Part shown: positions 5,174 to 55,466 of the stretch, one piece after another
How positions within the stretch are numbered: position 1 is the stretch's first letter
How the letters are laid out: every line of letters starts with the position of its first letter
Assembly: GCA_029204225.1 (NCBI GenBank)
Contig: CM055096.1
Location: forward strand, 44,685,967 to 44,749,966
Source of the DNA: Diphasiastrum complanatum
Lineage: Eukaryota > Streptophyta > Lycopodiopsida > Lycopodiales > Lycopodiaceae
Direction of reading: 5' to 3'
DNA length: 64,000 nucleotides
Translations under genes and position numbers: made by a program
Notes under the pieces: generated by a model
Database searches by the model: none
The model's input: only the letters and a program-made list of their open reading frames with translations
Told to the model about the DNA's origin: nothing

Positions 5174-7951
5174 TCCATGTCACATATACGTAGCTTCGGA
5201 GATTCACAGGCTATAACCCTGCCCTTGTTGATATGTGGAACCAATTTTTTCTTACTGAATGCAATCCCGCACCAAGTAACTACAAATATGTGTAGTATTC
5301 TAACTGCATGTATTTGTGTTAAACAAAAGTTGCCAAATTCATCTGCTGAATTTGAATTATGATGGTAAAATCTTAGATTATTGTCTGTAGCCTTGAGCTA
5401 TGGGAAGAGGTAATCCTCCATTCCCCAAAACACTGAATAAGCTTGACCTTGCTGGAAAGATTGGAGTCATATTTATGGTGATGTGAGACCTGGAATCTGT
5501 GATAAATATGCAAAATTTAGCTTGATTAAGGCCATAATTTATGTACACAATGTTATTCCACACATGTGGAGCCTATTCCCACGTGTGAAGCATAGACATA
5601 GGTTAGCTTGTACATAATCCCAAGAGCCATTAAGGCAAATAGTAAAGTTTTCAAAGCTAAACTGCATTTTCCTAGATGCTAGCTTTTGTTTCAAGAGGTG
5701 CAATTTGATTGGATGGCCATAGATTGGTATGAGACTTTAGGAGGAGCCAAAGCACAAGTGGATGTACTATCCCACACGTGTGAACAGGTCAGGTCAGTCC
5801 AAGCCTCAAGCTTTTTGTATATACTCCAATTTGGAGCTCATTTGGTAAGAACAATTTGAAGAGATCTTGAGGATTTTGCATCAAGGTAGTCTGTTTCTTT
5901 ATTTGCATGCATTTTGTGGATCCAATGCTTTGACTAGTGTTAGCACTTTGCTCTCCGGTCTCTGTCCGTACAGTAGGTTGGGTTCACACGTGTAAAGCCT
6001 ATTTGATCATTTACACTTTGCTTTAGATTGCTCTTACTTACATATCAAGATAGCATCAATTCTAGCTTGCATTTAGTGATAAAATTGTTGATAGTAATGC
6101 AACCAATCACTCTTGTGGATTGAATGAATCCATCTATGGTCCTGATTGTACTTTTCTTTCACATTCGATGATGGAATTACAAACCTTTTCTCCCTAAATC
6201 TGCAATCTCTGAGCGCGTCTATTGCTTACTTATGAATGCCATTTATCCAATCCAATTTGTTGCATAGTTTTTCCCAAAGAACTCACCATTTCTATGGGAA
6301 CACCATAGGATTGATTTTGCTTATGTTATATAAGTGTCACTGCAAGCTATGCTCACATTTGAATGTTATGCTCCTTCAATGGAAGTATTTTAGGGGTGAT
6401 GATTTGTTTGCATTGCTGAAATGTCTAATACTTGATCTTTTTAAAAAAAGCATGATTTCTTTTTAAAGTCTTTTTATTTAATTTTTCTATCTTGATTGAC
6501 TAGCATTTGTATGTCTTGGGTGGATGAGCCCAGGGTTTTTGTGTTGTATAGTTCCATTCAAATTAGAAAGCGAATTATATTTGAGCTTTCTATGATAAGC
6601 ATACAATAATGTCAAATAGCAAAAATGCAAAGCTGAGCTAAGGTTACAAAACGCAATCAAAGATGAGTGGAGGTGTGGTAGCATAACATTGTTGTTGTTC
6701 AAAAGGTTCATTATGCATTGTGTGTGTATTCCTGGGTTAAAAATCAGACTTTCTATGAATATTGGATATCTTTTTTGATTTAGGCAAGAGCCAGAATTGT
6801 GATCTTTCAAAGAAAATATTAATTTGAAGAATATATTTTCTACGTCATGATGTAAAAATAATACTAAAAAGGGTCGTTTAAAATTCTTGTTAGATATTTT
6901 AGTTTTTGGCAAAATGGCTTAAAACCAATATTCATAAAAAGGTCCCCAATTGACGTGGTTGAGGTGTTGCTTGTGAATCCAAAGCAAATAAACCAGAATG
7001 GCACACTACACACGGAGTTGAACAATCTTAATAGAGAGGGCACACACACCACCCATGAAGGTTGCTAAGAATCAAAGGTGTGTTGATAGCGATAAAATGG
7101 GCTAAAAGCATGTATGATAGAACCATGTCAAAAAAAACTTGGAATGTTTCCATGAAATACCTTGTGGCTATGAAAGTTGCAAATGTACTAGAGGAGGCCA
7201 AGTCTAGATAAGTGAGACCTAAAAAAATTGATCAGTAAAGAAAGAGTGTTCCTTCAAGGGATAGATTTAGTTGATTGGATTGGGAGCATATAATGAGAAA
7301 GAGAGGCCACACAACTAGGACAAAAGAAAATTTGCCAATGGATAGAAAGATGCTAAACCTATGTAAAACATCCACGGGTTAGTATGGCATGGATTTGATC
7401 TAATATCGTTGTACGTGTGTCCTTGCTCAACCTAAAAACTCTTTTCGTAAAAACGATTTGCAAATGTTTAGCAAGCGTCTTTTTATTGATTGAATATATA
7501 TATTAAAGCTTGTTAATTGATATGGACTACACTGATCAGCATGGCTTTCGCCTTGATACGGTAATATGATGACTTAGCTATCGCTAAAAATCACAAGTGA
7601 ATGGGAAGATTGGACTAAGAATTTTTCATTTTAAACTAAGTTGTTAAGTAGCAATGTTTATTTTGTACATGGATAACAACTGACATTCAACGTTGACACT
7701 TGTGGTTTTGTGTTGTGGGATGGTGGTAGGTACCAATTGGATATCTTGAAATAAGTCTTGCTTTATGGTGCTTTATTGTACTATATTTTGCTTTTCAGCT
7801 ATATTTTACCTTGTTGGCTTATGAATAAAGGTTTCAAACACTAGAGGAGTTACAAACATCAAAAGGGTCGTCTAAGAAATGCCACGTAGGACCAAAAAAA
7901 ACGTCGGATTTTGGAAATCCGACAGATCAGGTACGCCATGGATGAAGAAGA
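5174..7951. other. Intergenic, no supported gene
   Basis: Only short ORFs without recognisable domains, including a 141-codon minus-strand ORF at 6487-6912 with no family resemblance. Between 5560 and 6000 there are four CACGTGT-type words (CCCACGTGTG, CCCACACGTGTG, TTCACACGTGT and a CACATGTGG variant). The same word marks copia LTR ends later in the window, so this may be an eroded LTR. Confidence 0.4.
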
Positions 7952-9565
7952 GTGTCTATTTTTTTTTTGGTCTATCAGCTGATGTTTGCGGAGATGTCTC
8001 AGTTTCATCTACACATTGTTCTCCCTGCCGAGAATGCTTTGATAGCTAAAAGAGGAGTAGTGAAAGAATCCACAGTTTCTCCACTTGATATGATCGCTCA
8101 TAGAATCAACCAAAGAAAGAACTACGATTTGTGGATTGACGGAAGTTTGTATCCATTGGATCCGAGCTCGATGCAAGCTCCACAATTCCAATCCATCAGA
8201 CAATTAATAAAGTTTTTGTGTGACGGAGAAAACGGTTTACTAGGTTATTTTGAAAGATTGACAACTTATGGTGTTGCAAACTTGGTTCAGAAAATACAGA
8301 GTTTAGAATGTATGTTAAATGGTTTGCTTGCTGACTATAGAGAAAAAGAGACTGCATTATTACAAACAAAAGAAGATAATGCACGTTTACATAATATTAT
8401 GTTAAATTTGAATGCAAGTAACGATCAATTCCGACAAGTTGTTCAGACATTACATATATCAAATGACTAGTTAAAAGAAGAAACTCGCATATTAGATAAG
8501 AAATTAAAAAGAAACAAGCGAAAAAAAAATTTGAAGGACATTGATGAGCTTTCAATAAACGGAGGCCAATGAAGAAAAAGGATTCAAACTTTCAAGTAAG
8601 GATTTGATTTGAATCATTTTATTTTTGTTTTGTGAAATAGCATGACCTTTATTATGTGGCCTATTTGGGTTTCTTGATTTTTATAATCATTTGCATATCA
8701 GCATTGGTTGCAAATGAGCATCTGAGGGACAATGACATGATCAGAAAATCATTGAGTTCGGTATTGACAACCAAGTCCACAAAGTTTTTATTGGACAATA
8801 ATCGATATTCTCGAATCAAGTCCAAGATCATTGAGGCTTTGATGAACGATGTCGGTAAGGTAATCGATCGAACGTTAATTCATGTGATTTCTCAGGTATT
8901 AGCAAGGAGGCATATGCCAATATATTTGAAATTACTAAAGAGGCTTTTGGACAATTGCATGTAAGAAAATTTCCCATTCCTCGCCCTTTTTAGATAAGAT
9001 TGGATAGAGATGTATTGAATAAGGGTATGCAAAACGTCATTGGAATTCCTTTTCACATCAATGAGATTTACAATTTAAAGTCTGACAATTTGTCATATGA
9101 TTCTACCAACAACTGATTTGTGGATTTGAATCATTTATTGAGATTTATAGTGAAATTCTATAATATTACAAGTGTTAGTATGAGCAAACTTATTCTGGTG
9201 GTCAAGCTAGATGAATCGGAAGTTATAAAAGGACAAAAGTTGGAAAGAGTTAGTATTACTCTCATGAATGGAGCATTGAACAATGCAACAAGCTCAAGGG
9301 ATCTCAACTTCAGTGTGCAATCAGAATACAACATATAGTGGCTAGTATGTTTTCAAGTAAAAAATGGTTGTTATTCATGTGCGATTTCTTTTGGTAATTG
9401 TTTTGAATATATAAAAACTTGTGATTCCATATGTTGGACAGGTTATCAAAGAGGATCACGATGTTCTTTCTTGGATTTTTAGCAGAACAAGTTATCCATA
9501 TATCATAAAGGATCATATGTTTTTGACTTCCGTAGTTACCATTGGCGTGATGAATTTTACCATCT
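7952..9565 (+). pseudogene. Decayed intron-bearing transposase-like gene, copy A
   Basis: Plus-strand coding blocks in order: a 172-codon ORF (7952-8470) ending in a coiled-coil-like Glu/Leu/Asn-rich stretch; a likely intron near 8595-8699; KFLLDNNRYSRIKSKIIEAL (from about 8785); IGIPFHINEIYN (about 9040); MSKLILVVKLDESEVIKGQK (about 9180); LNFSVQSEYNI (about 9303); then an intron 9357-9441 and VIKEDHDVLSWIFSRTSYP. Several frame breaks and stops separate the blocks, so it is not functional. The block around 9300-9565 matches copy B at 53.4-54.9 kb on the other strand, including the intron position. It breaks off near 9565, where gypsy-related sequence of opposite orientation begins. I infer a transposase of RNase H-like type from the acidic-residue layout (VKLDE here, AGDLK in copy B). 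I cannot name the superfamily. Confidence 0.55.
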
Positions 9566-9734
9566 TTGTCTTTTGTTATGGTTTTACTTGTTTGCACGAG
9601 GGTATCTTTGCGTACTTTGGGACTTTTGCCAGATTGTCCTCTTTGTCACTCGTTTCATAACCCGTTGGTGCCAAGATTTTTTTATTATAGTGCGTTCGAG
9701 GTGGAAGGGTCACCACAAGTGCATGTTGGTCTAC

Positions 9735-10674
9735 CTAGGCCAAATGCCTCCTAACTATTTGTGAATTTCTCATCGGGCAATCTCGGCATGGATGATTAAC
9801 TCCACATTGTGAACACAAGGGATCAAATGTTGACGGATCCCCTCGGTGTGGACATTTAGCACGACGGTGTTTTCCTCCGCATCCATAACACCTAACTGAG
9901 TACAGTATGCCATCACGTCTAAGTTGATAGGCATAGACCGGTAACAGATTCTCCTTAGGATCTTCCACAAAATAGATTGGTAGGCTGTTATGGTCCTCCA
10001 TTGAGTTCGGTGACATGCAAGAGGATATAACCAAAACTTCTACCTTGCCACTATTTTTTTGAAAAAACTCGTGATTTAGATGGATCAATCTGACATCCAT
10101 CCTTCTGGTGAGCTCCTCGTCAGTGTTGCTCTATATTTTGTTCTTTTAATAAGCGCGAATTCTTGGTTGGACACTTGGTACTTGGATGATCTCCAAAGCA
10201 GAAGGTACATTTTTCCTTTTCAAGAAACTTAATAGAGCGAGCATAAGCTTGTTGATAGCTTGAAGTACAAGGTTCTTGGTCTTCCGCTGCACTTGATCTG
10301 CTTGACTTTGCTGCACTTTGTTGCCTTGCATTGGATTCCATTCTTGTTGAATCATCGCTCGTTGTCGACCTTTGTTCCTCTGATTTTCCATCTGACGATT
10401 CATCAGAGTGATAGGGAAAATCCTTCTTCCCGAGTGAGATTTCTATCAAGGCAACATCCTTACAAAGTTGTGCAAGCGACGCATAGGATGCTAACTCTTC
10501 CATACTAGATCTGATCCTTTTGGGCAGTCCGGCATAGTATTTTGCCATGATGATCTGTTGGAAAATCGAGGGATCACAATCCTTCACTAGATGATAGATC
10601 TGATAGGTGTAGTCTCGGATTGTTTCATCATGGAACTTTTTTAATTTCGATAATCCTACAAGGGCGGTCTCCAT
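9735..10674 (-). pseudogene. Gypsy-type LTR retrotransposon gag with zinc knuckles
   Basis: Two minus-strand ORFs (10120-10674, 9735-10100) form one broken gag. The first has the retrotransposon-gag helical region (MAKYYAGLPKRIRSSMEEL), a Ser-rich linker and a zinc knuckle CTFCFGDHPSTKC. The second adds CYGCGGKHRRAKC and CSQCGVNHPCRDC. Gag coats the element RNA in virus-like particles inside the cell. The ORFs are separated by a stop and frame shift near 10110. Downstream protease, reverse transcriptase and integrase are missing: plus-strand copy A sequence replaces them to the left. The matching primer site and LTR lie to the right at 11.7-12.8 kb in the same orientation. Confidence 0.7.
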
Positions 10675-11450: not shown

Positions 11451-11622
11451 TTCTTTTCCAAATTTTTTTAGTTTTTATTGTATTTTATTTTCGTACAAGT
11501 AAAAAAGAAAATCACAAAAACGGCAAAATCTCAAAAAAACGGCAAAACTAACATGAAATCACACTAATTCAACCCCAAAAATTCTGATTTTTTTGTGTGA
11601 AAAAAGAATGGTGAGAGAGAAG

Positions 11623-11625
<3 letters not shown>

Positions 11626-11701
<76 letters not shown>
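11626..11701. repeat. (GA)n microsatellite 1
   Basis: Near-perfect GA dinucleotide tract immediately next to the gypsy primer-binding region (outside the LTR). Confidence 0.95.
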
Positions 11702-11703
<2 letters not shown>

Positions 11704-11726
11704 ATGCAGCGAAGCGACTGTGTGGC

Positions 11727-11746
11727 GCTCCCCGACAACGGCGCCA
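11727..11746 (-). promoter_or_regulatory. Primer-binding site, tRNA-Asp type
   Basis: On the minus strand this reads TGGCGCCGTTGTCGGGGAGC, one base after the LTR end. It matches the 3' end of plant tRNA-Asp (CCCCGGCAACGGCGCCA complement) with one mismatch by my recollection of that tRNA. Such primer sites are common in Athila/Tat-type gypsy elements. It fixes element orientation and the LTR edge. Confidence 0.75.
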
Positions 11747-11816
11747 CTGTTGTGTCGACGATGTAGTATAAAGGTTCGTCGCTGGGAGCGACAACCTCGC
11801 CTTCACCTGCATAGCA

Positions 11817-11820
<4 letters not shown>

Positions 11821-11902
<82 letters not shown>
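11821..11902. repeat. (GA)n microsatellite 2 (inside LTR)
   Basis: GA dinucleotide tract inside the gypsy LTR. Confidence 0.95.
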
Positions 11903-11906
<4 letters not shown>

Positions 11907-12055
11907 CCAAGAAGCGAGAGGTTTGGGAAGCCCAAGCACCTTTCCCAAACTATTCGGTCGCTACTTAGAGAGAGGAGAGAAGCGAGAAAGGGAATGCCTA
12001 GGTTGAGAAAGACCTTGGGGGCTCGAGCGCCTACCCAAAGTTATTCTATCCCAAC

Positions 12056-12056
<1 letters not shown>

Positions 12057-12144
<88 letters not shown>
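12057..12144. repeat. (GA)n microsatellite 3 (inside LTR) between duplicated cassettes
   Basis: GA tract flanked by two copies of a ~50-bp cassette (about 12011-12058 and 12162-12210) that share GGGGGCTCGAGCGCCTACCC and ATTCTATCCCAACGTAG. The tract and cassette were duplicated together with a ~150-bp period; a weaker third relative lies at about 11920-11970. Confidence 0.85.
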
Positions 12145-12148
<4 letters not shown>

Positions 12149-12781
12149 CTTGGTTGAGAAAGACTTTGGGGGCTCGAGCGCCTACCCAAAGCTATTCTAT
12201 CCCAACGTAGGGAGAGAGGGAGAAGAGAGAGGGAGAAGGGAGAAGGGAGAAGAGAGAAGAAGAGAGAGAAAGAGATGGAGATGGAAAACCCAAGAGAGTT
12301 TTATTAGAATGAGAATGGAAGATGATACAATACAAAGGAAATGGCTCCCTCTTATAGAGTTTAGAGGTGAGCCTCCTTCACTCTCATTGGCCACTTCATT
12401 GGGGCAAGGATTCTAATCCAAGCCTTTAAAATAAACACAACTTAAATCTAATGGAACTAAGAAAGCACAAGGGCACTCACATGATTCAGGTGAGTTCTAC
12501 TTTGTGCAACTTAGATTCCTTATTTTTCATCTTGACTTTGTGAACTTGGGCCTCAAACTTATTTATTTACACCTAGGGCCCAAGTTATTAGAACACAACT
12601 TAATCTTGTTAGCTGGTGTGCTCATTGGGTTGGGCTTACACACGCAGGACGCCAGTGCCCTTGCACTTATTATTCTACTGTACACCGTACTGTGGCGGGG
12701 CCCACTAGTTAAGGCTTGGCCAGCAATATTTTAAGTGGTGGGACCCACTTGTTTATTATTGTGCAGGAAATACCCACAACA

Positions 12782-17093: not shown

Positions 17094-17283
17094 CTGGATG
17101 AGCAATATTTTTTGTAATCAAGTGAATATGTATCGACATCCTGAAAAGACATAAGCTACGAGGATGCTCCAGTTGCGTATGTGTGCTATTCATGAGTGAA
17201 AGGTTGAAGGCATACCCTTAGACTTATTCAACAAATCTCGTTTGAAAGAGAGTGACAGCTTATAAAAGAGTTCTTGATAAGCA
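17094..17283 (+). promoter_or_regulatory. Presumed 5' UTR with three short upstream ORFs
   Basis: If the exon begins after the acceptor at 17093, three uORFs precede the main start: 17098-17154 (18 codons plus stop), 17164-17199 and 17192-17221, the last two overlapping. An in-frame TAA at 17278-17280 lies just before the main ATG at 17284, so the coding start cannot extend upstream within this exon. Confidence 0.45.
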
Positions 17284-20200
17284 ATGGATTTTGACGAGTA
17301 TGAGTATCTCGAAAAAACAGTTGAAAACCCTGATTTTGTAAAGGAGGCCAATGGAGATGGAGGAGGACGTGACAGAGAGCAGAGGGAGTATTCAAGGGGC
17401 TCCAAGAGGAGAACGGATGAGGACACTCATGGCTACGACTATGTTCGCAAAAAGAGTCGGGTGGAAGAGGAAGATAGAGGTGACAGAGATAGGGGCCCAA
17501 GAAATTCAGATTATCGTTCCCCTTCAGAACGCCGATCTCGAGATACAGAGAGAGAAAGAGATCGCGAGAAGGTGCGGCCTGATCGGGACAGGGGAGATAG
17601 AGAGCGAGAGAAGGGTGATAGGGATCGAGACAGAGAAAAGACTGAAAAGGATTCAAGAGAAAGAGAGAGAAGCAGTAGAGATAAAGAAAGAGAACGCATT
17701 CGGGATAAGGAAAGAGAGAGGGAAAAAGACAGAGAGCGAGAAAGGTCTCGTGGAAAGAGCAGAGAATCTGATCGACACAGGGACAAAGAGAGAGATCGTG
17801 AAAGAGAGAAGGAGAGAGAAGCACATAAAGAGAGAGAGGACAGCCATCGAGACATGGATCGGGAAAGAGAACATAGGTATGGTGCATCTGTGTCTTAGTG
17901 TTGTTCTAAGCCATTGAGGGGAACGGAGATTTCTGTATAATGGTACTTGTGCAATACTTATTTAAATGTATTTTGGCCATTGAATCTTCTGTTGCACAAG
18001 CCAAGATTATGTCCACTATAAATAATCTTCACGAAGCCCCTTTGCAAAATGTTGGCTTTTCTAGTTACAGTTGGAGATTTGATATCCAGACATGCAAAAG
18101 TCTTGTTTTCTTTTTCCTTTTGAAAAGACATCATTCTTTTTCTGGCATTTATGTGTGCTGGATCCTTTTTTTTCAGCCGTTCCAGAGAAAGAAGAGAGCG
18201 GAAGGAAGAGCCTGCTTCAGCTGAACCTGAAGCTGATCCTGAAAGAGATCAGCGAACAGTGTTTGCCTACCAGGTAGCATATATGAAATATCAACTTGAT
18301 GATTTGAATATTGATTCTGAATTACTCTGTTTGAATGTGATGGTCGTCATTTTAAGTGAATGCTATCCATTGCACCATAGCAATTCTATTTTCATAGGCG
18401 ACAAATAACTTTGCATTGTTGTGTGTGGCTCAGATTAGTTTGAAGGCTGATGAAAGGGACGTCTATGAGTTTTTTTCACGTGCTGGAAAGGTAAGAATGA
18501 GTAAGTGATAGTTCAAATGTTTGTTGTTTGTTGTTCTATACAAGATCTCTCAAACAGGGCTGAATGGACAAGCAACCTGGATATTAGCTATTTGATGTGT
18601 TGTGTTTGCATCTGAATTTTTATGCTTATGACTATCACACTCTTGTTTTTGAAGTTTGGATATCATCTATCTTAGTTTCTGACTCCTGTCCAGTATTTGA
18701 TCTTCAGATTAAAGGTTGTAGCATGAGTGCCAAGTTTAATAGAGATTCATAATGTAACATATTATAATTCTTTGAAGAACACTCATTTCAAATTTGACAC
18801 TTTTTTTGGAATTGCTTTATGCTTTTCCTGGTATATGTGTTTTCGTCTTAGTGTTCAGAGTTGATGCATGCACGTTTCAAATCAATGCATCAATCTAGGT
18901 TGGCTACTAATCACTAATTGTGTGATAGGTGCGTGATGTTCGTCTCATCATGGATCGGAACTCACGAAGGTCAAAGGGAGTTGGGTGAGTTGAGTTTGCT
19001 CTCTGTAAATAAAAATGTTCCTTTTTTGGTCTAGCTTTGAACTGGCATACTCTTAAGGCTGTCTTCAGCGGGTTAATTCAGTACAAGTTTCTAGTTGGAG
19101 ATGAATCATTGGAGAGAAATTGCACCAACCAATGAATGCTTCTTATTATTCCTTTCTCTTTGGAGCAGTGACACAATTGGAATGCTTGCAAGGCTTTGGC
19201 TAAAACCAAATTTGGTGGAGTATTACGATGTACATATTTTTAATTCAGTTAAAAGTTCGATCATTATGGTGTAGGTCTTGGCTTTAAGTGTTGAATTCTG
19301 TTATCTATGATTGCACCAAGTTTGACTGTTGGGAAATTTAGACGTTTAAATCTTTTCAATTTGCTGAAGATTGTTTGAATTATTGTAGCATGGAGATCTC
19401 GGTATGGTGCTAAATGAGATGCTTATATACTAGCTAGCTATGAATTTGGCGTCAAGAGTGTAACAATGCGCTAAAAGGTGGTAGATTAGGGAATTGGCAC
19501 ATGAGAAATTGTCTGTTAAATGTGAGAAATGTGTCAGCTGCTTACTTTTGAGAGTTTATTTAGGCACAAAAGGCCTATTTTCATTCTGGCATTGGCTAAT
19601 AATGTCACAATGTTCTCTGAGATGGTTTATTGAGTGACATAAGGCCGTCTTCGTCTTGTTCAGAATTTTCTTTCAACTTCTACCATAGTTTGTTGCTTGG
19701 CATTGTGCTAAAACACATGCTCTCTTGTGAGCTCTTAGCTATGACAATTATAAATGAGCTTACGATCATGGTCATTATTAGTCAAGTTGCTCTTCATATT
19801 GTGCCATGAACTAAATGGCTGGTTTTGCAGTAACCGACAATCAATGTGGGGACGTCCCTTCAAAGTTCAAACCTTAGAAGCCTGTTCTGACCATTCCATA
19901 CGTTCTGGAACGTTCCGACCGTTCCGGAACGTATTGGGTTGGAACGATTTTTTGGAAGTTTAAAAAAAATTGTAAAACGACCCTGCTGGCCCGTGCATTC
20001 TGCATTTGCATTTCACAGATAGCGAGTTGTCATACTTCTAACGAGGACATGAAGGTGCCATGGAAGCCATAAGGCACCCTGGAAGGAAGCTTCACAGAGG
20101 CGATGAGCTCCAACGATTCTTCCTTGAAATTGAGCAAACTTTTCTGTACATCGATGACTGACATATTTTATGGTCATCTTTAAGTATAAAATATTTTATG

Positions 20201-22611
20201 CTCATCGATGACTGACATATTTTCTAATTTTACCTGTTGTTTCAAAAAGCAATTGCTTTCATGAAGAGATTGACATTCTTGCTTGAGAATCGCCCTCTCC
20301 TGAATTCATCAAGAAAAAGATAAAGTGAATACTGAAGAACGGTCTATAATAATCTACAATGCAGCTCAGTCAAACTGACTCAAAGGAAAAAGAACAGTAA
20401 ATCACTCGGCAAATAAAATGACAAACATCGATTGGACATAAAAAGCTCGCATATCATGGACGTGGTCCAGGAGTTTCCAGCGATGGTGAGCTTGCGGAAA
20501 GAAAGCAGGAAGCACCTTTGATTGAACACACACCTTAGATGCTCCTCAAGCTTCCTTAGATATTATGGTTTTTTTTTCCTTTGTAAAAAGACGTATTTTT
20601 TTTTGAGGGTGGTCTCGTTTCGGAACGAAACGCGTTCCGTTCCGGAACGGGCAACTAAGGTTCAAACCTAAGGAAGTGGATTCTGGGCGCGGACGCGCGT
20701 CCGGACGCAACGCCTCAGGGGTGCGTCCGGGTCCTAACGCGTCCGCCATTTTGCAATTTTTTTTCCCAAAAAAAAAAAAATACATGCCCCTCCCCTCACG
20801 GTCCCACATCCCCAAAATGAAATAAAAACAATTTTCCTCCCCCTACCACCCACCCCCCCCCCCCCCCCCCCCCCGGGATTCATTATCAGAGAGTGTCTGG
20901 CACATACCTGCCCCCTCATGTTAAAAAAATGATAAAGGTACCTAAAAAAAATTGAATTTTTTTTTGCCAGAAACCTTACCCCATTGCCCATGCCTCCCAT
21001 AACTGAGATATTACCAAGCAACGATGACTAATGAGCAGTCCATAAAATATTATGAACTAAGCTTAAAAAAAAGAGAAAATAGTGGCAAAGAAAGATCTAA
21101 AAAAAGTTTGGAGTGAAGATGATGGTTTACATGGCATAGAGATTACTGGTTTAGGGTTTAGGGTTAGCTTGGATGAGAGCGAAAGCTTGGAGCGTGCATC
21201 AGTGACTGTCTCAAAGAAGTGAATGCTCACCAGAGGATTTGGGAGAAGTGAATGCTCACCAGAAGAGTGACAAGCTCTCAGGACCATAAGTTTTTGGGAG
21301 GAATGAATGCTCACTAGAAGAGTGACAAGCTCTCAAGACAGGGAACCACAAGACCCACACACTACTGTCTTATATGATGAGATCGGTTTTCCCCCGGATG
21401 AACTTCAACAGCTTAGTAATCACTTATGCAAAACTGTGCCATTCACTACAGGTAACCACAAGACCTACACACTACTATGTCTTGGTTGATGAGATCGGTT
21501 TCTCCCCAGATGAACTTCAACAACTTACTAATCACTTATGTTACAACTTCAACATGCTGCAACACACTGTCGAAATTTTGCGTACCAACACTGGGGCTCC
21601 AAAACATCTCCAAGTTTTCAGGTCCCGTCTGGACGAGGTGTCCCTGAAGCCCGGTTTAACGTCAAACTTCAGACGGCGGACATTGCGGATTGATCGTCGG
21701 TTCGTTCCTCGTCTTGTCTGTTCCCACTGGTTCCTATTGAGGTTGTCCACTGGCCGAAACAGACGACACCTTAAACAGACCCTGTTTGGATGAACGGGGC
21801 CGTCGAACAAAAAGCTGCAAAACTAGTCCATTTCGCTAGACCTAATTGCGTTTCTCTCCCGTCGACGGGCCATTTTGACCGAACGATACCCGATTCGAGC
21901 CAGGCTCGATCCCTTGGGTTCGTATCGGGATCACGAACCTGTGTATTCTTGGACCATTTTGGTCGATTCCAAATGCATTCTACGCAAGTTCAAGTGTATG
22001 CTACACAAGTGCTACTCTGATATTGAATTTGCACATACTAATCTGCACATACTTGTGGTGCAATGCCTATCACACACTGAGGATGACTATCTTTGCCTTG
22101 TTTTGATGGTTATGGCTGTGGGGTTGTGGGTTCATGATATGTTAACCGTGCGATTTGTTAGGGTTTAGGGTGTTGTGTTCAATGATTGGACATGATGCAT
22201 ATGATATGAGAGACATGAAGATGTGCTGGTGTAAAACAATAGGTGCAGCATGTATAATTTCCATACTACGTCCGCCCTCTCTCTCTCTCTCTCTCTCTCT
22301 CTCATCTTGCACAGAGCAAACCATTTCTAACTAACCATTCAAATTGCGCAGAGTAAACCATTTCTAACTAGCCATTCAAATTTCACAGAGCTAACCATTT
22401 GTAACCAACCATGTTAAATTAGCCATGACACGAATAAATTGTAAAAAAATATATGCATCTCATTTCCCGTAGCGTCCCCCTGTGGGTCGGACTCGCAATC
22501 CCCCCATGTGCTCGGACCCGAGAGGCGTTCCCTGTGAACTGCTTTCGACAAAAAGGGCAACGCCACTTTTTGTCAGGCAACAACTCCACCTCATCCCAAA
22601 TGGGACGAGCG

Positions 22612-22678
<67 letters not shown>

Positions 22679-25600
22679 CTCCACGCGGATCTGCTGCTGC
22701 TTCGTCTGCTGTCCCTCGCGCCACATCCTCTCTCCCTCCACCTCGGACCACCTGCTCCCCCATCGCTACTATCTCCACCCCCCCCCCCCTCGCGGAACCA
22801 ACACCCTCCCCATCGCTGAAAAATACACCCTCATCGCTGGAAAAGGCACCCTCGCTGAAAGCAACACCCCCCTTGCTGAAAAGAACATCCCCTCCTCCCC
22901 CCTCGATGAAGCCGACATCACCTTCACCATCTTCGCTGCCAATAGATTTGTTCTCCGATGCAAACTCCTCGCTGCCTTCAGATTTGCCGTCCCCCTCGCT
23001 GTCCTCAGATTTGCCATTGCTATGTATAAAGGATGTGGCACCCCCTTCTTCTTCTTCCTCTTCTTCCCCACTCTCAGTTTCTTCCTCCTCCTCTTCTCTC
23101 TCCTCTGCTATTCCTCCCTCTTTTCATCTTCTTCTGCCTCTTCCTCGTCCCCAGTCTCCCACCCTATCGCTCTGGCCATCCCTACCGGCCTTCTTCCCAT
23201 CCCCATTACCCAAGAACCCACAACTCCCCAATTTGCGGTACCCATCCCCTGCCATCTGGAGGTGTACCAAGAAGGAGTTTATAAGTAGGTGCACTAACAT
23301 TATCCACCCCATCCATAAGAATGGTGACCCCATGATTCCGAGTAACTACCGCACCATCATGATTGGGCATGTCCTGGCGAAACTATATGGTAATATACTA
23401 CAGTCTGTTGTGAGCTCAGAGGCGGAGACTAGGAGACTACATGCCATGGGTCAGGTTGGTTTCCGAGCCCATTATTCTACTGTAGATCACATCTTCACAC
23501 TGCGAGCCTTGATTGAGGAGACTAAGCACAGGAGAGAGAGGGTTTACTGTTGTTTTGTGGACTTCAGGAAAACCTTTGATTCTGTTCCTCGCTCATTGCT
23601 CATCGAGAGGCTCCGAGACCTGGGCTCCTCCACCGACATTGTTCTTGCTGTGATGGCACTTTATGAGCGGGTGCTGGGTTGTTTTCGACATAGCAGTGGC
23701 ATATCTGATCACATCTGGAGCACTATTGGGGTGAAGCAGGGTTGTTCCCTCTCACCAGTCCTCTTTGGCTTGTATATCGATGAGTTAGAGAGAGTCATTA
23801 CAGAGGAGTGGTACTGGCTGCCGGTTTGGTGACATCTTGATTGCCATCCTCCTTTATGCCGATGATGTGGTATTGGTCTCACCGACCAGAGAGGGTCTAC
23901 AGCGACAGGTGGACTGCTTACATGGGTTTTGCACCATATGGGGCCTAGGGGTAAACATTGGGAAGACCAAGGTTTTGTGGTCCCTTCCTACACATACCTG
24001 GGGGTCCTTTTCTCAGGTCCTACTTTTAGCATGAGACAAGCCGCTACCACTCGACTTGGGAAGGGACATGCCTCCCTTGTTCAGCTGGAGCGATTTTGCT
24101 TTTGGAAGTCCATCCAGGATGCATGGAGGATATAGGTGTTACTAGAGATAGACAGGCGATACACATGTTGCACTATCCTCCTCACAGCGTCTTCACGATC
24201 GGGGCTACAGGTTATCATGGTTCTCTCAGGCCTCTCACCTCCTGCTTGCGTCATTTGGCATCTCCATCACAGAGCTCCCCTCAGGCACACATCAGTATAT
24301 CAGACGCTTCCTCTATCACACATATTGGCACAGGATGCTTTTACATGGGATACAACAGAGGGTGGAGATGCTTGTGCCACAGTGGGAGGGATTGATGGTG
24401 TGCAGGATTCACAAGCCCCTGCAGATGTTCATGTTGATGATGATGTAGATTGGACCTGCCGTGTTCGCCAGAGGACCATGTCAGACCTCAATAAGCAACT
24501 CGCAAAAAAGAATTGGAGCTTCTGTGCTGATAATCTAAATTCAAAACTTTATCAAGCATTATACCTTGAAGTTCTATCTTGAAACTTAGGAGACTGAGCA
24601 ACAAGGTGGAGGATCAATCTGGCAAACCGAGTAGTGGTAGACTGATCCTAGCAAAAAATGTGGCTCTTGAAGCTGGAAACTTGAGCCCTAGCTTGACTTA
24701 TAGGAGATTGAGTAGCAAAGTAAAGATTAGTTTGGCAAAACAAGCAGGGGTGGCCTGTTCTGTACGTATAAGCTGACTTTTGAAAATTGCCAGAAACTGT
24801 AAAAGAGCCCTAAATTTTAAGGTTTTAATTGAATTTCTTTTGCTACATTGTGGACGTTCGTACATACAGAATGAAACGTTTTGTACATTTTGCCCTATTA
24901 ATTAGGATGAAATGAATTTTTTCTTCTTGTGTTTTGGACATACAGAATGATATGTTTTGTACCAAAAGTTATGGGCATGGCTTTTATAAGAAGTGTCTTT
25001 GAGATGGATTTAGTTCGTATATTTTGTATATTGGACTTTTGATATTTTTTGTACAGTATATTGCAATGGAAGCGGGGACTGGACGCAGACGCTCGTCCGC
25101 GTCCGGACGCGGACGCCTCAGGGGTGCGTCCGCGTTCGGACGCGTTCCCCCATTTTCAATTTTTTTTTTTTCAAAAAAAAAAAAAATACAGGCCTTTGCC
25201 CTCACTGTCCCACATCCCCAAAGCGAAATAAGAACAATTTATGACCCTTGCACCCCGCCCCCCCCCCCCCCCCCCCGGAATTAATTATCAGAGGTTGTCT
25301 GGCACCCACCTGCCCCCTCCTGTTAAAAAATAGGAAAACAGTACCCAAAAAAAAATTGCAACAAACCTAACCACTGCCCCCATGCCTCCCATGTCACGAA
25401 AGAGCAACAATTTATATTTTTTGAGTCTCCAATACTCTGTAGACTCGTGCCCTCGCTAGCTCTCTCTCCTTGACGAATCTATATTATACTATTATATAAA
25501 TACAGGTAAACAGTGCGCTCCCCGGATGAACCTCAACGACTTACTAATCACTTATGCTCCACAATGTCATTCAACACAGGGAAGTTCAAGACCCACACAA

Positions 25601-28600
25601 TACCATCTCATCACCCTAAACCCTAAACCTATCCCATCACATAGGCCCTATGTGATGAGATAGGTTTAGGGTTTTGGGAGGTACAACGTCACATGGGCAA
25701 CAAATCGGGGCAGGTACATTTTGACAGGGGCACTGTGGGGGAGCAGACCACGGGCCCAATCGGAGTGCAGCACGTGGGGAAGCTACACATGGGGGCCGGT
25801 ACAATAGCATATGGGCACTGTGGGGGAGCAGGCCATGGGGCCAATGGGAGTGCGGCACGTGGGGGAGCAACAAATGGGGGCAGGTACAACGAGATCATCA
25901 ACAACTGCACATGGGGGAATGGGCTGTGGTGTTAAATAGGCACTCACGAGGCTGTGAGAGCCAGGAGCTGTGAGGCATTGTGAGAGAGCCAGTGAGAGGC
26001 TGTGAGAGCAATAGGACGTCGTGAGATGGGCGCATACCACCGAAGCCCGAGGGCGAAGCCAGGAGGCACCCGCCCCCGCTGTCGCCCCTGCCCCCGCTGT
26101 CGAGCTGGATTTGGATGAGCAGATTGGAATGAACTTCACACGACGACAATTCATCATGGTCAGGGAAAGGGCGGCCCGCCGTCGGGCTAACCAGGAGGCA
26201 GCTCGGCTACATGATAGTCTGTGTGTATCAATATCTACGAGTATGTGCTTAAAAAATCATCCCTCTGCGTGCCAAATGCATCCTCAGGGGTGTCAAATAC
26301 AAAGTTTGGCTGACAGTTTGGAGGCATCTGGGACTCCTCCAAGTCTGGGCCAATGCCTGCCAAGAGACGACTAGAAAAATCATCGGTGCGTTTCCTCTTG
26401 GCTGGCCTGCCGTTGGGTCTGTCGGAAGGAACCCTCTGTGGTACACTCTTGCCTGGGGGTCTCCCTCTGCCACGAGGGGGTCTCTGAGAAGAACCGACTG
26501 CCTGTGATGCTCTGAATCGTCTCTGCGCAATTTGTCTCTGGGCGGCAGCCTCTGTCTCCCTCGCAAACTCTGACCAGCCATCATCTGAAAGGGGGCGTGA
26601 TGCGGGAGTATTGGGTGGGGCACGTGGACCATTCCCTGCAAGGTCGACCGTCTCGTCTGAATCATATGTGGGCTCATCATCAGAGGAGGGCAATGGAACG
26701 TCAGCAGGAAGGGGGGTGGTCTCATCGGGATCAGCATCATCCTCGGGATCACCCCGTAGAGCACGCCAAACGGCATCGTCTGGATCAACCTCTGGCTCTG
26801 CCTCATGATCGGCCGCTGCAACCAGGCACTCATCGGGATTGACCTGCAGAAGTCAATCATTCGTGAGAATAGCCGAAGCAACCGTGGGGGCATTAAATTG
26901 AATGTCTTATACTAATACGAAAGCAAACTATAGAGCATAGACATATACCTGCAAGAGTAGGGAGCCCACTTCCTGCCCTCATGTTGTCCGTGATGCGTCG
27001 AACCACCCTGGTGTTGGTGTTGCAGTACACCAAGTCATTACATCGCTCAGTCGTCAGATGGTTCCGCTTGTTCGTGTGAACAAGGCTGAATGCTGACCAG
27101 TTCCACTCGCACACGCAAGCAGAACAGTCCTGCATTAATTGGCAACCACTCGAGTGAGTACCAACCTTGTAGAGAAAATGCGAAAACTGGTTGGATGAAT
27201 GAGATTAGACAACATACCTATGAAAGGACTCGGAACGCGAGTGTCCGTAGCTCTCCCACCATGATACAGGCAAGAGCCTGTTCTCTCGGACACGTGCAAG
27301 GTCCTCGCCGAACAACCCCAGACAGTGCCTGCAGTTGAGCAGCAATGTGTGTGAGTACACTTGAGCCCGCGCATAGAAATTGAGCGAACGACAGAGCAAG
27401 AGTTTACCTATAATCAAGCCTTTGCTCCTTGGGCCTGCTGCGGATACCAGTGTCGCTGCTAAGGAGGTGGATGTATGAGAACCAGTCCGCACGCAGCTCT
27501 GCATCGTCATACTGCCTCTCGCTTTGAAACAGCGGATGCAGTATGTGGGCCACACTGTGAATGGGCCGGTGAAACTTATCCCATCGTCGCCACCACAACC
27601 GTCTGATAGGCTCCACCTTGTGGGCCATCCCATGTGGAGGCAACAATTACATACCATCGTGTTGCGGCAACAAGACGAAATAGAGTGCGAATTGGAAGAA
27701 AGGATGGTGAGACGGAAAACAGTTATACTTGGCAGGGTCCAGCTCAAAACGCTGAAGAGACTGGCCTATGCGGTCCATGAACTCGTAAATGAGGCCCATC
27801 GTGCACCCCTCGCGATCAACGAGCCTCAGAACAGAGTAGATGGGGCGCATGACGTCCATCAGCTGCTGCATATCCACCCAGAAAGGCTCCATGAAGAGGA
27901 TGTCGTGGAAGGCCTAGCCCTTTGGGGTCGTGGACAGGTCCATGGCGGTGAACTCTGCAGAAGTAGCCATGCGCCGCAAATCACCCTTGAGCTTGTGTAG
28001 CCGCTCAAGCATGATGAACTGGAAGGCGAAGCGGGTGCGAGCGGGCTTCTTCAAGTCGAGCCTGCATTGTCAAATGGAATGAGAGGCAAACGAGCCAAAA
28101 AAAAAGAAGCATCTTGAACGAGCCAAAAAGTAAGTAGCATCTTATCTGCTGAATGTGCGGAAAAGGGCAGTCATGCGGCGCTTGCGTGTGACGAAGTCCA
28201 CAACCGCAAGTGCCCTCGTGAGAATCTCATTGACCCAAGGCAGGCGCCCGATGGAATGCAGGAGGAGGTCCAGTGAGTGTGCGGCACATGAAGTCCACAC
28301 AATGGAGGGGTACTCTGCCATAAGAAGCTCCCCCATACCGCGGCAGTTGGACGCATTGTCCGTCACAACGTTTCGCGATACGTTCACACGATGAGTTCAC
28401 AGCTTGAAAACACATTGCAATCAATCAAAAATTACGCAAAACTTTTGTATCAACATTAAGCAGTAAATGACCAAGCAACTAATGAAAGAAAATTGTACCT
28501 GGACAACGCGCTGTGGCCCGACCTCCTCTATCGCTGTGCGGATGATGCCGTAAATGTACTCGGCCGAATGCACTCTTCCTGCCTCGGAGGCGTCGATGCT

Positions 28601-29330
28601 GCGCAGGAACATGGAACCGTAACAACGAGAAACAATCACGTTGATGAGTGGACGTTTATGGCGATCAGTCCACCCATTAGCCATGATGGAACAGCCGTAT
28701 CTATCCCAAGCCTCTTGTAGTGCGGCTAGTCTCTCTCTGACGGATGCAACCCGCTCCTGGAGCAAAGGGCTGCGTAGTGCGTCGGCTGTGGGTGGTGTGT
28801 AGCTGGGCCTGCAAACTGCAACTTTCGAGATAGCCTTTCGAAAGATGCGGGATGATGCCATGATCAGGTCATGTAGGTGCGGAAGCGGAGGATGTGGACG
28901 GACCATGCAGATCTGACGGTGGTGGCATAGGCGTAGGTGCAGCAGTGGCGGCTGTGGATCCATGGGGAGTACTGGCGGAGGGGGCGGGTGCGGCTGCGGA
29001 TGCGGCGGCGGGGGTGGGGGCGGCGGCGGTGGGTGTACCAGTGGCAGGGGCGGTAGCAATGGGTGCACCAGTGGAAATAGAGTCTGCGGCATCTATGGAC
29101 GGCTCGCCGGGCTCAACACCTGGCTCAGCATATGCCTCGAGAATGCATCTCCACAGAGGGGATGACCATACAAATGCTGATCCCGTAGCGTCCCCCCGTG
29201 GGTCGGACTCGCAATCTCCCCTAATGTGCTCGAACCCGAGAGGCGTTCCCTGTGAACTGCTTTCGACAAAAAGGGCAACGCCACTTTTTGTCCGGCATCA
29301 ACTTTACCTCATCCCAAATGGGACGAGCGG

Positions 29331-39051: not shown

Positions 39052-39778
39052 TGTGGAGAATTGTAAAGTAAATAAAAATGTTTGATATAGGGGTCTCATA
39101 GAATTTCATAGTCAAGCATCTAGGTGTAGGATGTTGATAGGACCAAATTTGGCATAGTGGCAAATTATCCATTTCCACTTGTAATGCCACTATTTAGCCA
39201 AAATAGAGTAAGAGGCTAAACTCGTGCCAATTAGAGTGTAGACAAGTGTAATACTTATGTTTGATGAAATTTAAGAGGTCCACTAGGATTTAGAGGTGGA
39301 ACCTTAAGGGGTCCAATAGAATTTGAGGTTTGCTTAAAAATGGTCCAATAGAATTTAGAGGTGAATGGATCAATGGTCCAATAGGATTAACATGTGGCAA
39401 AAATGTGGTCCAATCATAGTTAAGCATAGTGGTAGCTCGTGGATCTACTAGTATCATTGTACTTCTCATTTGGATCTAATTGATTTTGAGATTGAGTGGA
39501 TTTTGTGAGTAATTGGTTTTCTAGCTTTTTCTCTCTACCCAAGAGCTCATGATGATTTTCTCTCTCTACCCGAGGAGAGCAGCTTGAGATAATTTTTGGA
39601 ACACTTCCCACACATGTGAGTGAGAGTTGGAAGTGATTGAATGCATGTAGTAGTGTGTTTTTGCCATAGAATCAAAGATAGATCTTGAATCTCAATCTAG
39701 TCTTGATCTTGGTGCATCTACACACCTTAGGAGATCACAAGTACATGTTGTGGACAGTCCACACGTGTGAATTCAACA
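39052..39778 (+). mobile_element. Relic LTR of the copia family (solo or truncated)
   Basis: Aligns along its length with the LTRs at 45144-45850 and 48827-49562: starts TGTGGAGAATTG, ends CACACGTGTGAATTCAACA. It shares GGTCCAATAG repeats, the pair of CTCTCTCTACCCGAG-type words and the AATGCATGTAGTAGTGTG block. The flanks (CCACG, AAGAA) do not match, so no target duplication; no primer site follows. Confidence 0.7.
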
Positions 39779-45048: not shown

Positions 45049-45143
45049 TGTGACACTTGTGTTAATGTAATTTGAGTGTGATCAAGTCAAAGTGTTGGCT
45101 TTGGTCAAAGGGTCCAATCAAAATTAAGAAATCCTCATGAAGG
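45049..45143 (+). mobile_element. Left piece of an older copia LTR (interrupted)
   Basis: Probable LTR start TGTGACAC at 45049 by symmetry with the TTTCACA end at 50011. It is split by insertion of the 45144-49562 element; the rest continues at 49568. The exact start is uncertain. Confidence 0.4.
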
Positions 45144-45850: not shown

Positions 45851-45867
45851 TGGTATCAGAGCCTACC
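45851..45867 (+). promoter_or_regulatory. Primer-binding site, initiator tRNA-Met type
   Basis: TGGTATCAGAGCCTACC immediately after the 5' LTR. TGGTATCAGAGC is the classic plant copia primer site complementary to initiator tRNA-Met. Confidence 0.92.
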
Positions 45868-48811: not shown

Positions 48812-48826
48812 ATAATTTTTTAGGAG

Positions 48827-52145: not shown

Positions 52146-52314
52146 AAGATCTACTAGTATCATCGTACTCCTCATTTGGATCTAATTGATTTTGAGATTG
52201 AGTGGATTTTGAGTGTAAGTGATTTTCTAGCTTTCTCTCTCTACCCGAGAGCTATTGATGATTTTCTCTCTCTATCCGAGGAGAGCAGCTTGTTTTTACT
52301 TAGATTACTTTTGG
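52146..52314 (+). repeat. Partial copia-family LTR
   Basis: Matches the family LTR interior from CTACTAGTATCATCGTACTC through the two CTCTCTCTACCCGAG words to GCAGCTTGTTTTTACTTAGA. It is cut at both sides and separates the protease exons from the plus-strand ORF. Confidence 0.85.
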
Positions 52315-52318
52315 CTTG

Positions 52319-53432
52319 AGAGTGTCCCCTCTACTTCTGAAGCAGCTTCTTCTAGTAGTACAAAGTCTGAAAAGTCAAAGATTGTAGATATAGATACTTT
52401 TTTTATTGATACGAGTGTTAATTTAGATGATTGTTCTGATTTTGATCCTGCTTGAAATAGGACTACGTTTATTGGCCCTAGAACACCCACTACCCTTTCT
52501 CCTTCTGATAAATCTTTGATTACTTTGCCTACTTATGTTATAGATAATAATTCTTTTTTGACAATATCAGATATATCGGATCTTTTTGACTTCACTGAAG
52601 CTGAGACTCTTTGCATTTTGAGCAAAGAGCTTGATGAATTTTCGGATATAATTGATTTTGATGCTGATGATCTTCTCCTTGGTGTTGACGATGTACATAA
52701 TAAGTTTTATTCAGGGAAAGATTGCTTGAAAATGGTTGTGGAGGAAATGCGCAACAAAGAAGATGATCTACCTTCTGAGGAGGAGTTTCTTACAATCCAA
52801 AGTCAACTTGGTTTTCCACACCCAACTGTCTATTCTCCAACAATATTGACATCGAAAGGTGGACATAATATTGATGGAGAGACAATAATCAGGGAAGACA
52901 AAGCCGAATGTGTAAGTTTTTGTATCTTATCAAGTACTAGTAGATTTGTTATGTCAGATTATATACTGGAGCTTACTTTGTATTTTATCATTTCAGGAAA
53001 CAATTTTCCTTGATGATTTCGCAATTCGTCGAGGAGGGTAGAGATCTTCTGCTGGAAGATTTTCAAGAGATCATGCACTGGGGCACTATCTGAAGTCCTT
53101 CAAGAATAATGGGATAAGTGTTGCCCATTCAACTTCATCAACATGGTGAAACTATGATTATGGCAATCAAGGCACTGTCTCATTTTCTTGGAGGACATAA
53201 TTTCAATCAGGTGCATAAAGTAATTTTTGTAAAGAAAACTATTGCGGTTAAAATTTTAGGATATGGACTTGTGAATTTCATGCTCAGATTATCTCATTTT
53301 GCATTGTATGCTGCTTACGTTGATCTGAGTAAGCATGAAAACTATGAGCTATTGGATCCATACGAAAGAAAAAAATTGTTGCATGATTCTAAGTTGCAAC
53401 TTTCATTGGAGAAAATATCGAAAGTAGATTAG
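52319..53432 (+). CDS. Unknown acidic protein, possibly transposon-encoded, broken
   Basis: The upstream stretch EAASSSSTKSEKSKIVDIDT ends at a stop (52453). The main ORF then starts at 52516 and runs in frame to 52911 with an Asp/Glu-rich protein (DDLLLGVDDVHNKFYSGKD, RNKEDDLPSEEEFL). A GT-AG intron at 52912-52996 is in phase and leads to ETIFLDDFAIRRGG and a stop. Later blocks HALGHYLKSFKNNGISVAHS and, from 53118, LGYGLVNFMLRLSHFALYAA to LQLSLEKISKVD are in shifted frames. I do not recognise the family. It converges on copy B, whose 3' end meets it near 53400, which would fit two genes of one element. Confidence 0.4.
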
Positions 53433-54867
53433 ATAAGATACTGCTAAATTGTACTTTGTAAATATTTTTATTTAATATACAAAATTTTATTGTGTGTCTA
53501 TAGTCTACTGGCTTGTATAAATTTGCATGCTTTTTGAAATTTTTTATACTCCGTCGATTTTGTATTATGACAAATTTGGATTCTTCTGTAAAACCATTGG
53601 AAAAGTTGCAGTATATAGCTATTTTTTGTGCTAGTCCCGCCATGTTGTTTACTTTTATGAAATGCTGCTCTTGCTTGCCAATGAGATTTTGCCATTCCTT
53701 GCGATGACCATATGCTAAGACTTCCACTATTTCTTGCAAAGAATGTCGAATGATGTCGTAATATGTGCTGCATGTCATAAAAACATAATCTAAATCAGTA
53801 CCAAAAGTATCTAATTTAATTGCACATATTTGTCTATCGTAGTGTAAAATCAAAATCTTACCATATAATGTGTTATATGATCAACACCCCATGCACTTTG
53901 AACTGCATCCACAAATTCATGGTTGTTTTCTGTATCATTTGTACATCAGTATTTGAAAATTTATCTTTTCTCAAGTATCTTACCATGTTGTCTAACTTTT
54001 TCCAAACTTCTACTTTGTGTATACGAGTAGAACCTTCTTCTTCGAAATCTTGAGTTGCTGCAATAATTTCTTTCCAAACCGTGTATTGATCCTTAGATTG
54101 TTTGCCAAAATAATTTGATAAAAATCTTTGAGCTTTAGATCCTCCAATGCTCGGCTTGCATGGAATATTTCATGTTTTATCTGATAGCTTGTCTTCTTTT
54201 TTTATTTTAACGTGGCCTTTATGTAAGCCTGCTTTGGACAACACATCCTCTAATTTGGAAATAGCTTCCTTCGCAGAGGCCTCTAGCTTGGAATTCCATA
54301 CAAACAAGATGTGAAGATATATATATTTTTTATAATACGCACCTCCGCATGCAATGTACATACATGAACATTTCGTAGAGGAATTGGTAGTACAAGTTTT
54401 CAATTAAAATCTTCTCGATCTCTTGATAATCCTGTACTCCTTGTCATGTCTTTTGCTATTTTCATGCAGTACAAACAAGGGTGTTTAGAGTTAGCGCCAT
54501 GAGATACATTGAACATACATCTCTTCAAATCTCCTGCTAAATGCCATTCAATGTTGAAAGTGCCAATTCTAGGAATATTGAGTGGAACTCCCTCCATGTG
54601 ATTTTTATGGTGGCAGGATATGATGTTCTATTAAATATCCATGAGAGAATGTCATGGTCTTCTTTCAGCACCTATAAGAGAATACAAAAATGTGATTAGC
54701 CTCATAATATTAACACAGAAGATTTTCCATATGAAATCCATATTCAAATGATTATCCCTATTTATTATGCGAAAGAACTGCTACACCTGAAATGCTGCCA
54801 ACCACCAGATATCATTTTCTGATTGAACACTGAAATTGAGGCCTTCTGAGTCTTCTAAATTTGAAAG
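53389..54867 (-). pseudogene. Intron-bearing transposase-like gene, copy B
   Basis: Minus-strand blocks: LNFSVQSENDIWWLAAFQ (54840-54787), intron 54672-54786, VLKEDHDILSWIFNRTSYP (54671 down), FNIEWHLAGDLKRCMFN, HGANSKHPCLYCMK, VLPIPLRNVHVCTLHAEVRI (about 54395-54330), LHILFVWNSKLEASAKEAIS, NIPCKPSIGGSKAQRFLSNY, FGKQSKDQYTVWKEIIAATQ and EVWKKLDNMV; then to 53400 ICAIKLDTFGTDLDY and EWQNLIGKQEQHF. Three or more stops or frame shifts break it. Copy A (7.9-9.6 kb) shares the first two blocks and the intron at the same codon border. The AGDLK acidic residue, the C-x-x-C pair and CTLHA suggest an RNase H-like transposase core with a metal-binding insert; that is inference. The 5' part is cut by the LTR at 54868. 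Confidence 0.6.
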
Positions 54868-55466
54868 TGTTGAATTTTACACGTGTGGATTGTCCACAAC
54901 ATGTACTTGTGATCTCCTAAGGTGTGTAGATGCACCAAGATCAAGACTAGATTGAGATTCAAGATCTATCTTTGATTATATGGCAAAAACACACTACTAC
55001 ATGCATTCAATCACTTCCAACTCTCACTCACACGTGTGGGAAGTATTAAAAAATTATTCTAAGTAAAAACAAGCTGCTCTCCTCAGGTAGAGAGAAAAAA
55101 ATCATCATGAGCTCTCGGGTAGAGAGAGAAAGCTAGAAATCCAATGACACTCAAAATCCACACAATCACCAATTAATTAGATCCAAAATGAGGAGTACAA
55201 TGATACTAGTAGATCCACGAGCTACCACTATGCTTAACTATGATTGGATCACACTTTGTCACCTCTTAATCTTATTGGACCATTGATCCATGCACCTCTT
55301 AATATTATTGGACTATATTCAAGCACACCTCAAATTCCTATTGGACCTCACGTGGTTCCACCTCTGAATCCTATTGGACCTCTTAGAATTCATCAAACAA
55401 AAACATTACACTTGTCTACACTCTAATTGGCACGAGTTTAGCCTCTTACTCTATTTTGGCTCAATA
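54868..55466 (-). mobile_element. Copia-family LTR, minus orientation, truncated
   Basis: The plus strand begins TGTTGAATTTTACACGTGTGG and shows the reverse complement of the family LTR: TAGATGCACCAAGATCAAGA, two GGTAGAGAGA words and TATTGGACC repeats. It stops at TTTTGGCTCAATA, so the LTR's first part is missing where CACTA sequence begins. Confidence 0.85.

Follow-up and report, generated by a model that had tools for sequence, protein, structure and literature searches.

Two decayed copies of an intron-bearing, transposase-like gene and a motif spacing that resembles RAG1

Two broken copies with a common intron position

To which kind of gene or mobile element do two broken, intron-bearing coding segments belong that lie 45 kb apart, on opposite strands, in one stretch of DNA? 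The whole stretch that we analysed, here called the window, is 64 kb long, and its gene and element content suggests that the host is a plant. The original prediction had joined the two segments, copies A and B, into a single transposase-like family. In our analysis the translations that it gave for both copies proved right, and a tblastn search of the window with the copy A query recovered copy B as linked pieces with E = 1.7e-12. The remaining tblastn matches of the pieces had E values of at least 0.048, so that no third copy was seen in the 64-kb window. The parts of the two copies are as follows.

7946..8470, +, copy A, N-terminal open frame, 174 codons between stops, with its first ATG at 7982
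8707..8859, +, copy A, segment VANEHLRDNDM..., probably the next exon, placed by eye without a confirming relative
8898..9356, +, copy A, exon that holds VVKLDESEV and LNFSVQSEYNI*WLVCFQ, interrupted by three stops in frame
9357..9441, +, copy A, intron, GT-AG, phase 0, 85 bp
9442..9510, +, copy A, part of the last exon that matches copy B, VIKEDHDVLSWIFSRTSYPYIIK, similarity detectable to 9510
54787..54867, -, copy B, exon ending in LNFSVQSENDIWWLAAFQ, truncated at 54868 exactly where a copia LTR ends
54672..54786, -, copy B, intron 1, GT-AG, phase 0, 115 bp, at the codon boundary of the copy A intron
54331..54671, -, copy B, exon with VLKEDHDILSWIFNRTSYP, a frameshift, WHLAGDLK, PCLYC and CTLHA, one TGA
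53885..54319, -, copy B, segment of 145 codons in the part from the second Asp to the C terminus, one TGA
53862..53894, -, copy B, AWGVDHITHYM, directly before intron 2, not in the frame used at 54319-53885
53768..53861, -, copy B, intron 2, GT-AG, 94 bp, new here
53498..53767, -, copy B, C-terminal exon, HILRHHSTFFARNSGSLSIWSSQGMAKSHWQARAAFHKSKQHGG..., stop TAG at 53500-53498

What the two copies have in common is a segment of 41 codons that is interrupted by an intron. In copy A it begins at 9303 with LNFSVQSEYNI and WLVCFQ and continues, after the intron (GTAAAA...GGACAG), with VIKEDHDVLSWIFSRTSYP; in copy B it runs from LNFSVQSENDIWWLAAFQ at 54840 across the intron at 54786-54672 (GTGTAG...TTATAG) into VLKEDHDILSWIFNRTSYP. 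Both introns are GT-AG introns of phase 0 and fall between the same codons, just as had been predicted, and this common position points to descent from a common gene. The intron sequences themselves are alike weakly at best, without clear similarity: their alignment scored 6.0, compared with a mean of -2.1 (sd 3.9, maximum 13) for 300 shuffles. The residues originally given for copy A as LNFSVQSEYNI...WLVCFQ are correct, whereas the dots stand for an in-frame TAG where copy B has TGG (W). The interval first assigned to copy A, 7952 to 9565, likewise holds as far as 9510, where similarity to B ends in the tblastn alignment (perhaps 9519 by eye), but not for its last 45-55 bases, in which homology with B was not detectable.

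Over the 41 codons A and B are identical at 86 of 123 nucleotides (70%). First, second and third codon positions account for 8, 7 and 22 of the 37 differences, and of the 26 codons that differ, 16 encode the same amino acid in both copies. This third-position bias indicates that A and B both derive from working protein genes, and since the differences are those left by two lineages selected for their protein, the copies must have split long ago. A and B are thus old, separate lineages with past selection on the protein. Both are broken genes now, copy B by stops and frameshifts. In copy A the N-terminal frame, followed by a TAG and then by a lysine-rich continuation to about 8569, is the longest in 7500-9700, and its length was reached in 1 of 1000 shuffles. 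A search for terminal inverted repeats (TIRs) around A found none in 6500-10200, where the 13 inverted-repeat pairs (arms of 12-23 nt) look like chance, and target duplications were not found around A either. The sequence CACTA occurs at 7004 and 7839 within 7001-8000 (+), both times without a partner, and no end of A was located.

Motif spacing of copy B compared with RAG1

The motifs on which the original prediction was built are where it had put them: AGDLK, CLYC and CTLHA of copy B lie at 54597-54331, and VVKLDESEV lies in copy A, where the codon at 9210 encodes the candidate first catalytic Asp. WHLAGDLK of copy B contributes the candidate second Asp (codon 54531), and PCLYC is a zinc-type C(2)C. 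Neither the C-terminal exon of B nor the convergent second gene described below was part of that prediction. When intron 2 is spliced out, HITHYM is joined in one frame to HILRHHSTFF...SSQGMAKSH. By its position the segment 53885..54319 is predicted to be a zinc-binding insertion region.

This fuller copy B can be compared with mouse RAG1, for which the residues D600, D708, C727, C730, H937, H942 and E962 are given in PMC4914335. A C(2)C and an H(3-4)H between the second D and the E are described as common to the CMCT lineages (CACTA, Mirage, Chapaev and Transib) and RAG1, which belongs to the same clade, in PMC12730594, where a figure legend gives '2C and 3H' for CMCT. With the first Asp taken from A and the second from B, the distance between the two is about 96 residues, compared with 108 in RAG1. 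From the second Asp to the first Cys it is 18 in B and 19 in RAG1; C(2)C and H(4)H are present in both; the last His is followed by the Glu position after 20 residues in both; and the second Asp and the Glu position are about 248 residues apart in B versus 254 in RAG1. The stretch HYMHILRHH across intron 2 is His-rich and gives both an H(3)H and an H(4)H. The H(3)H ends one residue before the H(4)H, and the residue 20 positions on from it is a Met. The His of CTLHA, which lies 39 residues after the second Cys of B (read without alignment), may supply the third His. Where the last catalytic Glu would be expected, the C-terminal exon of B encodes an Ala (GCA, 53692-53690), so that the triad is incomplete in B, the sole copy that reaches this far.

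How much weight does this spacing carry? The layout without the Glu was found in 7 of 5000 full shuffles of a 513-residue composite, and with the Glu in none. When the shuffling was confined to blocks of 40, 20 and 10 residues, the layout without the Glu appeared 78, 94 and 200 times per 5000, and it was absent from all 47 E. coli stop-to-stop frames of at least 300 aa. The full pattern with the Glu fails on the real sequence, where the only copy that covers this position, the pseudogene B, has Ala. The spacing ranges were set after B had been seen, that is post hoc, and the match is hence moderate evidence. To this moderate degree the acidic residues, the C(2)C and the H(4)H of B appear to be spaced as in mouse RAG1 and the CMCT transposases. 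The CACTA-type relic in the window resembles B in having an H(3)H (HLIVH) with an E, that of FFLERFM, 20 or 21 residues after its second His, counted over two frames joined by eye. It differs from the A/B family in its DUF4218 match (4.4e-20) and shows no significant alignment with B, the score of the His-to-Glu region against it being reached by 426 of 2000 shuffles. AlphaFold models of two pieces from the window (P0001 and P0003) had mean pLDDT values of 39 and 48, that of the piece with VVKLDESEV being 39, and were therefore unusable.

Relatives, the convergent gene and competing explanations

That A and B belong to a single protein family of acidic, transposase-like layout, as first proposed, is supported. 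The further statement that this family could not be assigned to hAT, CACTA, MULE, PIF, Kolobok or KDZ agrees with the Pfam scans at E <= 10 and was too strong with respect to layout, since the spacing of B, once the C-terminal exon is included, resembles the CMCT clade. At E <= 10 the A and B pieces gave no transposase model in Pfam, only scattered sub-threshold matches, and the 513-residue read-through composite drew no transposase model at the same threshold. The Pfam matches listed at E <= 10 included none of PF02992, PF06869, PF06918 and PF12940, which are tied to CACTA, Mirage, Chapaev and RAG1 in PMC3985635. Nor did hAT models such as DUF659 match the A/B family in Pfam. XPC-binding, DUF1815, CbiC, C4_MG1, GINT1_N and Orthopox_F6, all scattered and below the Pfam cut-off, were rejected. 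As positive controls, the same Pfam searches detected DUF659 in the hAT relic of the window (4.7e-26), RVT_2 in the copia element (1.3e-49) and DUF4218, which we take to be a CACTA marker, in a 325-residue composite of the CACTA relic (4.4e-20). A 109-residue piece of the CACTA relic alone had no Pfam match at E <= 0.01; a Pfam miss is thus not proof.

A sequence search of the PDB returned no transposase, RAG1 or Transib chain. Two rubrerythrin chains (E 1.1-1.2) were rejected, and the best PHROGs match (0.014) was taken as chance. The searches for relatives covered prokaryotes, viruses, phages, plasmids and E. coli. Phages gave no relative by tblastn at E <= 1. Among viral contigs the protein queries pointed to 7 stretches for the C-terminal exon of B, 12 for the second gene and 8 for the N-terminal frame of A, with none confirmed; of the degenerate patterns one gave 2 stretches, which were read and are unrelated, two gave 0 and one gave 7. 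Of these last 7 stretches one (L010, tblastn E 0.004) was rejected as chance, its frames resembling phage structural genes, and the other six had tblastn E values of at least 0.10 or nothing. Prokaryotic genome contigs yielded 10 stretches with a protein query, 0 of them confirmed, and 0 with a degenerate pattern. As these collections are prokaryotic and viral, missing relatives in them say little about plants. We noticed no description of the A/B family in the literature, among the matches listed, and it may well have been published or entered in Repbase already. Similar unnamed proteins may occur in non-seed plants and cnidarians.

Copy B and a second gene that faces it from the left are together bordered on both sides by pieces of copia LTR.

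52148..52312, +, fragment of a copia LTR next to the second gene, the gene pair being cut at 52312
52313..53432, +, second gene, convergent with B, probably spliced, 5' end cut by the copia LTR fragment
54868..55466, -, copia LTR terminating copy B, 93-94% identical to the LTR at 48963-49562, other end truncated

The second gene has an in-frame TGA at 52453-52455, then an open frame at 52456-53013 (185 codons) that is the longest in 52313-54867 and whose length was reached by 0 of 1000 shuffles. An intron proposed by eye (52912-52996, GT-AG, 85 bp) lies within this frame, which continues through it, and the last exon is broken and ends with TAG at 53430-53432. The second gene and the transposase-like gene of B meet tail to tail, with 65 nt from one stop to the other, and B is accordingly half of a convergent pair. 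For the second gene Pfam at E <= 10 listed one family, Orthopox_F6 (0.0088, 16.6 bits versus a cut-off of 27), and no Kelch match. The inverted repeats around B were considered as TIRs and rejected: they are oppositely oriented pieces of one copia LTR, and hence not the ends of the element itself. The LTR at 54868-55466 (-) recurs at 39078-39781, 45143-45850 and 48826-49562, and the piece that ends at 52312 is a further fragment of it.

We consider A and B, with a probability of about one half, to be relics of a decayed two-gene DDE transposon with a CMCT-like layout, unplaced as to superfamily. Two old and broken copies in a window dense in transposable elements fit a transposon. A and B would then be decayed remnants, each from an old lineage of its own, of a eukaryotic cut-and-paste DNA transposon whose transposase may have been a DDE enzyme of RNase H fold, with its first Asp in VVKLDESEV and its second in AGDLK. 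A putative zinc-binding insertion would be formed by the C(2)C that follows the second Asp together with the H(4)H towards the C terminus, and the catalytic Glu, which B has lost to an Ala, would have stood 20 residues past the last His. By analogy with the clade, such an enzyme would cut the ends of the element through its DDE site and paste it into a staggered target, and the Cys and His pairs might fold the insertion between the second Asp and the Glu on a zinc ion. Elements of this clade would be expected to have 5'-CA..TG-3' termini and target duplications of 2-5 bp. The B element would also have carried the convergent spliced gene, perhaps as a helper of transposition.

It might be possible that the transposase belongs to a named CMCT lineage (plant Transib, Chapaev, divergent CACTA, ESTA or Lanisha) and is too decayed, or too distant from the Pfam seeds, to be recognised. 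The layout fits the clade, 39 Transib-like proteins are reported from plants (PMC9435367), and Pfam has its limits, as the 109-residue CACTA piece, missed at E <= 0.01 until a longer composite was used, makes plain; yet the 513-residue composite drew no transposase model while the CACTA and hAT relics of the same window reached 4.4e-20 and 4.7e-26, and we hold this explanation to be unlikely. With RAG1 and the CMCT transposases A and B have in common how D, D-x17-C(2)C, possibly another His and H(4)H follow one another and how far apart they stand, and likewise the 20 residues up to the Glu position, whereas they have no Pfam or PDB sequence match and B has Ala for Glu. Because both the last acidic residue and a sequence match are missing, we do not file the family as a CMCT member. 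A DDE superfamily outside CMCT, such as Sola, Academ, Dada or Kolobok, with a RAG1-like spacing by chance, seems rather unlikely. The spacing does turn up in 1.6-4% of block shuffles under ranges chosen post hoc, and we know of no Pfam model for Sola. Sola elements are DDD transposons and are reported from the moss Physcomitrella (PMC10741241), but they are placed in clade E with RNases H1 and retroelement RNases H (PMC3985635), an RNase H-like clade apart from RAG1 and CACTA, a comparison made by description only. The same source assigns RAG1 and DUF1280 to clade II and DUF1258 and Transposase_21 to clade III. Dada, for its part, is described with a DxxH after the second D and with CCCC and CCHC fingers (PMC3706591), none of which were seen here. 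Could A and B instead be pseudogenes from a gene family of the host, perhaps one of domesticated transposases, with the convergent gene as an unrelated neighbour? The kept intron position, two copies at 70% within 64 kb and the failure to find TIRs or target duplications would suit such a family, but both copies are broken, lie among relics of transposable elements and carry a transposase-type motif layout, which makes this improbable.

For the two-gene transposon reading, the pairing with the second gene is a question of its own. The second gene has no recognised domain, and the region is rearranged and flanked by pieces of copia LTR; rearrangement may therefore have joined genes or elements that were unrelated, with the second gene outside the B element. 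Against this, the stops lie 65 nt apart, tail to tail, with no boundary visible between them, and we regard an unrelated second gene as doubtful rather than improbable. Convergent tail-to-tail genes, several exons and a zinc-type layout are also described for protoRAG (RAG1L-RAG2L; PMC9885083, PMC9435367), from which the present element differs in a second gene without Kelch and in having no detected sequence similarity. The likeness to protoRAG is one of arrangement only and may be coincidence; opposed genes are reported from other elements as well, for example IS3EU (PMC12730594). A plant lineage of two-gene elements that combined a RAG1/Transib-type layout with an unrelated tail-to-tail helper, as an independent protoRAG-like pairing, would be quite an unlikely outcome. 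If intact copies were to confirm the layout, the family would represent a further deep plant branch of the transposase clade from which RAG1 came, with a convergent partner, and would bear on how often pairings of transposase and partner arose. Genome annotators would also gain a profile with which to recognise relics that at present go unclassified. If not, A and B would be ordinary worn transposon fossils.

Other elements in the window

Several other elements surround the two copies. A copia retrotransposon occupies 45143-49562 (+), with LTRs at 45143-45850 and 48826-49562 (about 97% alike) and matches to RVT_2 and gag_2, and further copies of its LTR lie at 39078-39781 and 54868-55466. A second, related copia relic (49750-51182 and 52148-52312, +), about 73% identical to the first over the 5' part, matches gag_2 at 50820-51182 and retains a piece of LTR at 52148-52312. 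The CACTA-type transposase relic (LDPMHIFKNV...) extends from 55467 to about 56780 (+) and adjoins the truncated side of the copia LTR. At 28421-29092 (-) lies a hAT-type DUF659 relic (4.7e-26), and at 22438-23832 (+) a LINE-like reverse transcriptase (RVT_1, 1.2e-14) in a single open frame with low-complexity sequence. The segments 17281-17898, with an RS-rich N terminus, and 30973-31029 (+) look like one gene spread over more than 13 kb, presumably an RBM39-like splicing factor; the frame at 17281-17898 had no Pfam match. At 11600-12290, long GA-repeat arrays alternate with the copies of a duplicated sequence, which is about 165 bp long.
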